Shown here piece after piece: positions 33,906 to 36,613 of a stretch of DNA of 42,561 nucleotides. Source of the stretch: Desulfobacterales bacterium. GTDB lineage: Bacteria; Desulfobacterota; Desulfobacteria; Desulfobacterales; JAHDSC01. The notes beneath the pieces are model-generated. The model ran no database searches, was not told the origin of the DNA, and worked only from the letters and a program-made list of their open reading frames with translations. The position numbers were made by a program, and so were the translations under genes. The stretch covers positions 1-42,561 of the forward strand of contig JAHDSC010000114.1 in assembly GCA_018432925.1 (NCBI GenBank), written 5' to 3'. The first letter of the stretch is position 1, and the number at the start of each line of letters is the position of its first letter.

Positions 33906-34382
33906 TTATTCGGAAGATTTTTTCAATCTCTGGATACTGAACAGGGTATCTTCATAAATATCTTTTTTCAAGGGATCTGTTTCGATGGCTTTCAGGACAA
34001 GCCTTTCCGCTTCTTCGAGTTTTTTCCCCTTCATATAATATAGCCACGCAAGGTTATTATATGCGTCGGCACTCTGAAGGTTGTTTTCTATTGCCTTTTT
34101 GTAATGTGTTTCCGCCATGTCGGGTTCTTCTTTGATAAAATAGGCGTTTCCGAGATAAAGATGGGCTCGTGGGAGTTTTTTTAGAGCCAGATGATAATGT
34201 TTTATCGCGCTGTCAAAATCTTTGTTTTTTTCATACGCAACACCCAGATTTAAATGTTCTTCAGGAGTCAGAGGGTCATCTAAAACAATAATTCTTGGCA
34301 ATGAGCAGCCTGCAAGAGACAGCACCGACCCTAAAACGATGGTCAAAGGAATGGTCAACGCTTTTTTTATGAAAATCGTCAA
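33906..34382 (-). CDS. TPR-repeat lipoprotein (C-terminal part of a PA2778-like system)
   Basis: Predicted lipoprotein with tetratricopeptide repeats. From a TTG at 34382 the signal peptide is MTIFIKKALTIPLTIVLGSV ending in lipobox LAGC with Cys26. Three or so TPR units follow (EEHLNLGVAYEKNKDFDSAI; AHLYLGNAYFIKEEPDMAE; ADAYNNLAWLYYMKGKKLE). The TTG overlaps the upstream stop as TTGA, indicating coupling; an ATG at 34427 is in frame but would put 15 polar residues before the signal peptide. With the two genes upstream it resembles the PA2778/PA2779 pair, where peptidase and TPR parts are one protein. Confidence 0.8.
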   Translation of the reverse strand: MTIFIKKALTIPLTIVLGSVLSLAGCSLPRIIVLDDPLTPEEHLNLGVAYEKNKDFDSAIKHYHLALKKLPRAHLYLGNAYFIKEEPDMAETHYKKAIENNLQSADAYNNLAWLYYMKGKKLEEAERLVLKAIETDPLKKDIYEDTLFSIQRLKKSSE

Positions 34383-35005
34383 TTTTTTGGAGTGATGATC
34401 AGGGTCCAAAAATCTGTTTTTTCCCATGAATTCATGAAATTTCTGTTGGAGATGAACTTAAGCCGATCTCTTCCGGTATTTGCTATGATTCCATCTTTAT
34501 CGTATCCGACAATAACCATGAAGTGGTTCCGCTGACAAATCCAAAACCCATAATCAACCAAGACGATTATCGGATATCCCGAGTCGATATTCCGTCGGAT
34601 GTCTTCCATGCTGCCGCTGTATTGCCGGCCTTTTAGACCTTTTTTCCGCGCATAAAGGACCATATCCACATCCAGTGTTCCTTTTGCTGATTTACTGTAG
34701 ATATCGGTCGCGATTTCCTCCGCAGGCACATGGATATCCCAATAATTTAAAACACCGGCGATGGAAGCAGGCCCACACTGGTATGCTTCCTGAGGATAAA
34801 ACGGAACCTGATCGATGATATGATAGTTATTGTCTATACTTGAACTGTTGGTACCGGCACATGAAGAGGTGAAAAAAAGTATGCCTAAAAATATGCACCG
34901 GTACCTCTGGAATAATGCAAAGATCGGCCGGACCAAATTCCGCAAAAAAACGGCATCGTGCTCCATCCTCTGGAAAGGCGGGACCGGCGACCAAACATTT
35001 TTCAT
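34379..35005 (-). CDS. C39-family cysteine peptidase lipoprotein (PA2778-like)
   Basis: Predicted membrane-anchored papain-like peptidase. Active-site Cys77 is in QCGPASIAGVLNYW and His161 in NHFMVIVGYDKDG, as in bacteriocin-processing C39 domains. A hydrophobic stretch ends in a lipobox-like FTSSC (Cys49). The ATG at 35005 lies 2 bases after the upstream stop and gives 208 residues; an in-frame ATG at 34966 would shorten the N-region by 13. It overlaps the TPR gene by 4 bases. No bacteriocin or ABC transporter is adjacent, so its substrate is unknown. Confidence 0.82.
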   Translation of the reverse strand: MKNVWSPVPPFQRMEHDAVFLRNLVRPIFALFQRYRCIFLGILFFTSSCAGTNSSSIDNNYHIIDQVPFYPQEAYQCGPASIAGVLNYWDIHVPAEEIATDIYSKSAKGTLDVDMVLYARKKGLKGRQYSGSMEDIRRNIDSGYPIIVLVDYGFWICQRNHFMVIVGYDKDGIIANTGRDRLKFISNRNFMNSWEKTDFWTLIITPKN

Positions 35006-35007
35006 GT

Positions 35008-35397
35008 CTATCGGACGAGAACTCTTTTTCCAGTCACCATGAACCAAACGGCAACCAGTATCCCTATCAGAAGTATTACCACCAAAACTTCAAATCCTCC
35101 GCCACCGACCTTGATTTCATCCAGTTTCAGCGCAAGCTCATGAATCTGGTGATCATTGAGCTGAGTGAGCCTTGCCTGAATTTCTTGGGAGGATAAGCCC
35201 AATTCGGCAAAACGTTTTTTTACCATTTTAATTTCGAGGATCTTTTGAATACGCTCGAGGTCGGAAGCCCTATCAGCGGTTGATCGTGTTATGATTTCGG
35301 ACGGGCAAAATCCCGCTTCAATGCGTGGCGCGATCCCAATTACAAACATTGCCACTACGAGATACCATGACAGACATTTCACAAACCTTCTATTCAT
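35008..35397 (-). CDS. PA2779-like small membrane protein
   Basis: A 129-residue protein with an N-terminal signal-like segment (WYLVVAMFVIGIAP, residues 11-24), a helical middle with KRFAELGLSSQEIQARLTQL and NDHQIHELALKLDEI, a Gly run (VGGGG) and a C-terminal membrane helix (VLVVILLIGILVAVWFMV). This layout matches the PA2779 family, which is paired with PA2778-type peptidases. AAAGGAG precedes the ATG. First gene of the three-gene cassette; function of the family is unknown to me. Confidence 0.82.
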   Translation of the reverse strand: MNRRFVKCLSWYLVVAMFVIGIAPRIEAGFCPSEIITRSTADRASDLERIQKILEIKMVKKRFAELGLSSQEIQARLTQLNDHQIHELALKLDEIKVGGGGFEVLVVILLIGILVAVWFMVTGKRVLVR

Positions 35398-35689: not shown

Positions 35690-35971
35690 TCAAACAATCC
35701 GGTACCGCGGTTCATCCAGGTGTTCGCTTTTACAGCGAGGGCAGCGCCCCGGTTTATTTAAGCGCTTCCGTTCCTTAAAGGTAAAGCCGCAGGAAATACA
35801 CTTTGACGGTATCAAAATAAGCTGTTTATTCAAGGATATTACTGAACGAGCGATATGGGGAAGATGGTAATAAACATCTTTTTCCCGGATACCAAGTTCC
35901 TGCGAAAGATCCCGGGCGGAATGCTCACCCTTCGATAGGAGGGCGATTATTTTTTGACGAAGCGTAAGCAC
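35690..35971 (-). CDS. Predicted transcriptional regulator, HTH plus zinc ribbon (COG3357-like)
   Basis: A 93-residue protein with an N-terminal winged-helix-like HTH (LRQKIIALLSKGEHSARDLS, then GIREKDVYYHLPHIAR, about residues 4-42) and a C-terminal zinc ribbon with Cys58, Cys61, Cys77 and Cys80 (CISCGF...CPRCKSE). This architecture is known from predicted regulators best represented in archaea. The start is GTG at 35971. Targets unknown. It lies alone, 292 bases before the PA2779-like gene on the same strand. Confidence 0.8.
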   Translation of the reverse strand: MLTLRQKIIALLSKGEHSARDLSQELGIREKDVYYHLPHIARSVISLNKQLILIPSKCISCGFTFKERKRLNKPGRCPRCKSEHLDEPRYRIV

Positions 35972-36277: not shown

Positions 36278-36613
36278 TTATTTACGATTCTTTTTAAATT
36301 TTACAGCAATTCCATGCCTGGAGACCCGAATGATTTCACCCTTTATTTTAAGGTGTTTCAGACTCTTGGAGAAAGGAATCGTTATTATGATTTCTTGGCG
36401 GGGCGAGAACGGTTGCTTGGTTTCAATAAATACACCGCCCATGCTAATGTTTTGGATGAAATCCTTATACAGGCGATTTCGACAACTATAATCAATAAAC
36501 ATTACGTGATTTTTCCTTTGATCCGTTCTTTTCTCCGCCATTTGACCTTTCCCATGGAATTCCGAAGGGCGCCTCTGTTTTTCAGTGAGCGTATCTATAA
36601 TTTCTATAAACAA
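36278..36613 (-). CDS. PilZ domain protein (probable c-di-GMP receptor)
   Basis: A 111-residue single PilZ domain. Both c-di-GMP-binding motifs are present: RxxxR as Arg29-Arg33 (RTDQR) and NxSxxG as Asn55, Ser57, Gly60 (NISMGGVFIE); GEIIRVSRHGIAVKF closes the barrel. The TTG at 36613 is chosen because GGGAGGAAC stands directly upstream at good spacing; an ATG for MAEKRT would shorten it by 24 residues. A longer plus-strand frame over the same bases is a shadow. No motility or cyclase gene is adjacent. Confidence 0.87.
   Translation of the reverse strand: MFIEIIDTLTEKQRRPSEFHGKGQMAEKRTDQRKNHVMFIDYSCRNRLYKDFIQNISMGGVFIETKQPFSPRQEIIITIPFSKSLKHLKIKGEIIRVSRHGIAVKFKKNRK

Follow-up and report, generated by a model that had tools for sequence, protein, structure and literature searches.

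A PA2779/PA2778 cassette in unfused, three-gene form, with a candidate glycine cut site in PA2779

The window analysed here, a 42,561-nucleotide stretch of Desulfobacterales DNA, carries on its minus strand, at 33906-35397, a PA2779/PA2778 cassette in which the C39 peptidase and the TPR region of PA2778 are encoded by two separate genes downstream of a PA2779-like gene. We put at about even the chances that the full reading of this cassette is right, namely that it is an unfused three-gene form, that the split state is the ancestral one and that the C39/TPR pair cuts PA2779 at a G-[G/A/S] site.

The three reading frames and their key codons were verified. The first gene (35008-35397, minus strand) encodes a 129 aa PA2779-family (DUF6627) protein, which scored 69.8 bits against NF033919 (cut-off 40) and 42.6 bits against PF20332/DUF6627 (cut-off 27). 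Two bases separate its stop codon from the ATG at 35005 that opens the gene of a 208 aa C39 cysteine peptidase, a putative lipoprotein (34379-35005, minus strand; PF13529, Peptidase_C39_2, 64.6 bits, gathering score 24 bits), for which Met14 is an alternative start. The stop codon of this gene overlaps, in the tetranucleotide TTGA (34379-34382, minus strand), the TTG start of a 158 aa TPR lipoprotein (33906-34382, minus strand) matching PF00515 at 65.7 bits over three stretches. The TPR start is also unsure, as an ATG at 34427 opens the same frame to 173 aa and would overlap the C39 gene by 49 bases. This upstream extension into the 3′ end of the C39 gene (34379-34427), beginning MGKNRFLD, has a similar counterpart at a number of split loci, probably because a conserved C39 end is being read in another frame. 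A single NCBIfam model, NF033920 (PA2778, 255 positions), spans both proteins, covering the C39 protein with positions 2-146 (117.1 bits, E 8.3e-34) and the TPR protein with positions 156-254 (37.5 bits, E 1.6e-9), and neither reaches its cut-off of 150 bits. Both parts are homologous to PA2778, then, and they lie in two frames with a 4-base overlap instead of in a single chain. The sequence-only reading had described exactly this trio, with its 2-base gap and TTGA overlap, and had put the peptidase and the TPR region in different genes, with a lipobox for each; frames, family matches and, for the export signals, sequence patterns bear it out. That the split is a chance event or an assembly artefact is ruled out, because 107 distinct sequences show the same split. 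Upstream of the cassette, the window encodes a PF0610-like winged-helix/zinc-ribbon protein (35690-35971, minus strand) and a PilZ-domain protein (36278-36613, minus strand).

Signal peptides were scored with a home-made lipobox pattern rule and not with a trained predictor. Under its strict form both putative lipoproteins of the window pass, the TPR protein with a strong lipobox (LSLAG-C) at Cys26 (34305-34307, minus strand) and the C39 protein with a weaker one (FTSS-C) at Cys49 (34859-34861, minus strand). The same strict rule was passed by 92 of the 107 unique split TPR proteins, with the cysteine visible by eye in the remaining 15, and by 63 of the 107 when a narrower rule was applied. 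The sequence-only reading had made its case depend on the TPR protein having a real signal peptide, and these counts came out in its favour. The rule is satisfied by 76 of the 107 split C39 proteins and by 57 of 63 fused ones; in some further split C39 proteins the cysteine is visible by eye. Twelve split C39 proteins have a plain signal without a lipid cysteine, and their partner TPR proteins all retain one, as would be expected if the TPR protein tethers the peptidase; the twelve fall in one cluster of 13 tree rows that is weakly supported (95/25). A fused PA2778 (locus L231) was modelled as a single confident fold (pLDDT 92, pTM 0.87), parts of which find their counterparts in TPR structures, in the C39-like peptidase 3erv and in the ComA peptidase 3k8u. 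We infer that the separate TPR lipoprotein would dock on the C39 protein. A PADLOC search gave no match for the PA2779-like and C39 proteins, and for the TPR protein one weak match over the repeats (E 7e-4) that we do not regard as meaningful.

The predicted catalytic residues of the C39 protein, Cys77 (34775-34777, minus strand) and His161 (34523-34525, minus strand), are invariant in all 169 domains of the family, the window included, and the glutamine is present in 163 of them. In the profile comparison the ComA peptidase domain ranks first among solved structures, followed by 3erv, a putative C39-like peptidase, and by the PCAT double-glycine protease domain. In C39 double-glycine peptidases the third catalytic residue is an aspartate. 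The D-P pair that contains it in ComA, in PCAT and in all 10 outgroup domains is replaced by S/T-G in most of the family, where the aspartate position holds serine or threonine in 151 of 169 domains (threonine in the window) and aspartate in 8, and where the preceding residue is histidine or asparagine in 144. Since the aspartate is absent from so many members, the peptidase activity could be altered, and from the residues that are kept we infer a site that is probably active in a modified form. In the phylum of Marinobacterium jannaschii, two PA2778-like lipoproteins (L277 and L278, from genomes G1116 and G1141) end ahead of most of the TPR part; by eye their catalytic cysteine is changed to glycine or serine and their histidine to glutamine or arginine, the stretch fetched around them shows no match to PA2779, and they are apparently dead paralogues. 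The NF033920 matches of genomes G1092 and G991 end in a similar way.

The PA2779-like protein has an N-terminal signal or hydrophobic segment, periplasmic helices, a run of glycines and a C-terminal membrane helix. In its predicted structure, a low-confidence model (pLDDT 66, pTM 0.26), the signal segment is followed by helices at residues 40-65, 70-79 and 82-98, by a break at 99-101 and by the membrane helix at 102-122 (35032-35094, minus strand), which is also hydrophobic in sequence. The glycine run, Gly98-Gly101 (35095-35106, minus strand, codons re-read), is the proposed double-glycine cut site. C39 double-glycine peptidases cleave after GG, GA or GS. The accessible text of one FapD study gives GG as the usual cleavage motif of C39 domains and GA as an occasional one (PMC5557850). 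Of 197 PA2779 family sequences, 169 have a G-[GAS] pair (GG, GA or GS) at the break ahead of the membrane helix: 78 of 100 from split loci, 57 of 59 from fused loci, 30 of 34 orphans and 4 of 4 others, so that 22 of the 28 sequences lacking it belong to the split class. The column of the first glycine (187/197) is second in conservation only to a loop glycine that is present in all 196 sequences with a letter there. A coarser scan found the pair in 173 of 196 PA2779 sequences and in 30 of a control set of 95 other flanking proteins that have a hydrophobic segment close to their C-terminus, both sets including related sequences. When 21 PA2779 members were searched with leader-peptide models, matches were no better than chance would give (best E values 0.025 and 0.11, in one member each), and other models gave, beyond PA2779/DUF6627, weak matches in a few members (best E 0.0019).

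Co-occurrence of C39 and PA2779 is almost exact. Among 291 genomes of the window's order, the C39 profile (A1, threshold 100 bits) found its target in 77, all of which also have PA2779, while four have PA2779 only and 210 have neither. The four (G062, whose match lies at a contig end, G140, G166 and G197) are 80-92% complete, and in a further genome, G094, a 52-column piece of C39 at a contig end falls below the threshold. A sample of 297 genomes from the phylum gave 71 with both, two with PA2779 only (G537, which has the TPR gene and no detected C39, and G381, where the contig ends 198 bases away), four with C39 only and 220 with neither. In three of the four C39-only genomes (G379, G484 and G526) the C39 gene lies within about 125 bases of the contig start; the fourth, G502, has C39 and TPR genes with no PA2779 detected, and G523 and G543, of the same family, have weaker C39 matches and no PA2779 either. 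These three genomes and G537 run counter to a strict linkage. C39 accordingly accompanies PA2779 in 77 of 81 and 71 of 73 PA2779 genomes; the two samples share some genomes and related genomes are not independent, which limits the Fisher p values. At least two PA2779 matches occur in 29 of the 81 order genomes (up to six, partial and weak ones included), not all of them next to the C39 gene, while only two of the 77 have two C39 matches of at least 100 bits. Several PA2779 matches per single C39 is the pattern of one enzyme with several substrates. Beyond the cassette no wider neighbourhood is constant, the largest non-cassette clusters reaching 10 of 125 loci in flanks of mostly 3-4 kb, and PA2779 is the sole partner found to track C39. 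As side observations on gene order, MlaE- and MlaD-like genes (by eye) lie upstream of the cassette and on its strand at L191 and five or six other split loci; L282 and L140 (genome G363) have the order C39-TPR-PA2779, with the C39 match of L140 in two pieces and apparently broken; and genome G378 has one locus with PA2779 and TPR genes and no C39 match (L147) and another with C39 and TPR genes and no PA2779 match (L274).

These features suggest a mechanism in which PA2779 would be exported and stay anchored to the inner membrane through its C-terminal helix. The C39 enzyme and its TPR docking subunit, two lipoproteins on the periplasmic side, would cleave it at G-[G/A/S], immediately outside that membrane and ahead of the membrane helix, and so free its periplasmic helical domain. 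A precedent is FapD, described in the accessible text as a periplasmic C39 peptidase whose active cysteine is required (PMC5557850). A more elaborate version, in which a lipid-anchored C39 enzyme without the aspartate, guided by the TPR protein, sheds one to several PA2779 helical domains by periplasmic double-glycine cleavage, with the fused PA2778 as a later one-piece edition, is offered tentatively, and we would sooner bet against it than for it.

PA2779 could instead be no substrate at all and act as the inner-membrane anchor or regulator of C39/TPR in a stable envelope complex, its glycine pair being a hinge. The frequent common gene order and the tight co-occurrence would suit any partnership, the glycine run is, in the predicted structure, the short break separating the membrane helix from the last periplasmic one, and 22 of 100 split PA2779 proteins do without the pair; however, a fixed complex does not sit well with several PA2779 proteins per single C39, some of them encoded at a distance, or with a first glycine whose column ranks second in conservation across the family, and we regard this explanation as possible, though rather unlikely. 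It is distinctly improbable that C39/TPR processes another exported substrate, with PA2779 as an adaptor and the cassette serving an unlinked secretion pathway. By analogy this might be suggested by FapD, which is thought, in the accessible parts of two sources, to process an exported substrate in Fap amyloid secretion (PMC5557850, PMC6173800), and genomes of family f148 have C39 with PA2779 undetected; but PA2779 alone tracks C39, and no other neighbour is constant in the flanks covered.

Both the split and the fused form are frequent. In the window's order, 79 places of at least 100 bits in the 77 genomes comprise 51 that are fused-sized, 26 that are split-sized and two at contig ends, judged by open-frame length, so that split is a frequent minority (26 vs 51 of 77 resolved places). 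In a sample of Nitrospirota, the phylum of the Nitrospirae genome of L191, 56 of 59 NF033920 places (58 of 148 genomes) end ahead of most of the TPR part and three are full length, classed by extent of the match and not by the presence of a TPR gene. The fused form is the norm in Pseudomonadota: 49 of 49 places (48 of 145 genomes) in the order of M. jannaschii reach model position 243 or beyond, and 38 of 43 places (41 of 299 genomes) in its phylum reach position 235 or beyond. The fetched loci, which were picked from matches and are not a fair sample (193 rows, some places twice), comprise as unique sequences 107 split, 63 fused, three with no TPR seen and one at a contig end; in one scan, the best 80 of 106 loci gave 79 classified, of which 57 were split, 20 fused and two C39 with no TPR seen. 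The statement in the sequence-only reading that Pseudomonas-type PA2778 is a single chain agrees with the Pseudomonadota counts, whereas the rarity of the split form that it implied is ruled out by the order and Nitrospirota figures. Split as the common state, which it had named as speaking against itself, describes the Nitrospirota sample and not the window's order. Of its two terms, "split or unfused", the separate genes stand and "unfused" is the better fit, as the favoured, if not settled, root makes the fused form the derived one. NF033920 misses most split forms at its cut-off, as both the window and 55 of the 58 matching Nitrospirota genomes fall below it.

In a tree of 169 C39 domains, one branch parts fused from split rows (100/99, and 100% of 200 bootstrap trees), and the split rows, which number 106 and come from several phyla, are deep and diverse. 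When 10 outgroup C39 domains were added to 68 ingroup rows, in an analysis whose bootstrap had not settled, the fused rows formed a clade (100/100) nested within split, and split appeared as one side in no bootstrap tree; a topology with split as one side nonetheless passed the AU test (p 0.20). A single change of state between the two forms is therefore well supported, whereas a split ancestor, with Pseudomonadota-type PA2778 arising from one C39-TPR fusion, is favoured and not settled. None of the 10 outgroup C39 proteins has a TPR match; against a split ancestor weighs that, at one of these loci, L263, a TPR gene in the same orientation lies about 400 bases upstream of the C39 gene. That the split form arose instead by fission of a fused PA2778 gene is very improbable, since, even though fused places outnumber split ones in the window's order by frame length and the AU test allows the two as sister sides, the split rows are deep and diverse, their TPR proteins bear signal peptides of their own and the outgroup proteins lack a TPR match. 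In the phylum of M. jannaschii, a 332-aa lipoprotein (L279:2161-3157) has TPR ahead of C39 in one chain, the reverse order, as if these parts had been joined a second time, independently; before it lies the gene of a 296-aa protein in which two stretches weakly resemble PA2779, and after it a gene that is caspase-like by eye.

PA2778 and PA2779 are family names used in automatic annotation, and our search of the open-access literature, lipoprotein C39 peptidases included and in part judged by title, found no functional work on the family. In the portions of these papers that are accessible, PA2779 is a hypothetical protein divergent from PA2780 (bswR) (PMC3985676) and a row in a promoter table (PMC10155442, the sole paper found by the DUF6627 and family names), PA2778 is named once (PMC3697988), and C39 and C39_2 are described in general terms (PMC10318531). 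The present analysis supplies a concrete candidate substrate and a candidate cut site, and the unfused form allows the peptidase and TPR parts to be deleted, tagged and purified separately; the cut-off of NF033920 leads most such forms to be overlooked.

Among the periplasmic C39 peptidases that we found described, FapD, from the Pseudomonas Fap amyloid system, comes closest; like the cassette enzyme it is an exported C39 peptidase without an ABC transporter. Unlike the cassette, it has a Sec signal and belongs to the fap operon, and the accessible text of the two sources mentions no PA2779 or TPR partner (PMC5557850, PMC6173800). The peptidase domains of the ABC transporters ComA and PCAT share with the cassette enzyme the C39 profile match and the common cysteine and histidine; the cassette differs in lacking an ABC transporter, in its predicted periplasmic instead of cytosolic location, in having Ser/Thr-Gly for D-P and in its TPR partner. 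PA2778 (NF033920) and PA2779 (NF033919) are themselves among the closest systems, and an Azoarcus plasmid provides an example annotated with both family names: the C39 domain and TPR region are homologous and the PA2779 gene is likewise upstream, whereas in the window PA2778 is represented by two genes, each with an export signal and neither at 150 bits.
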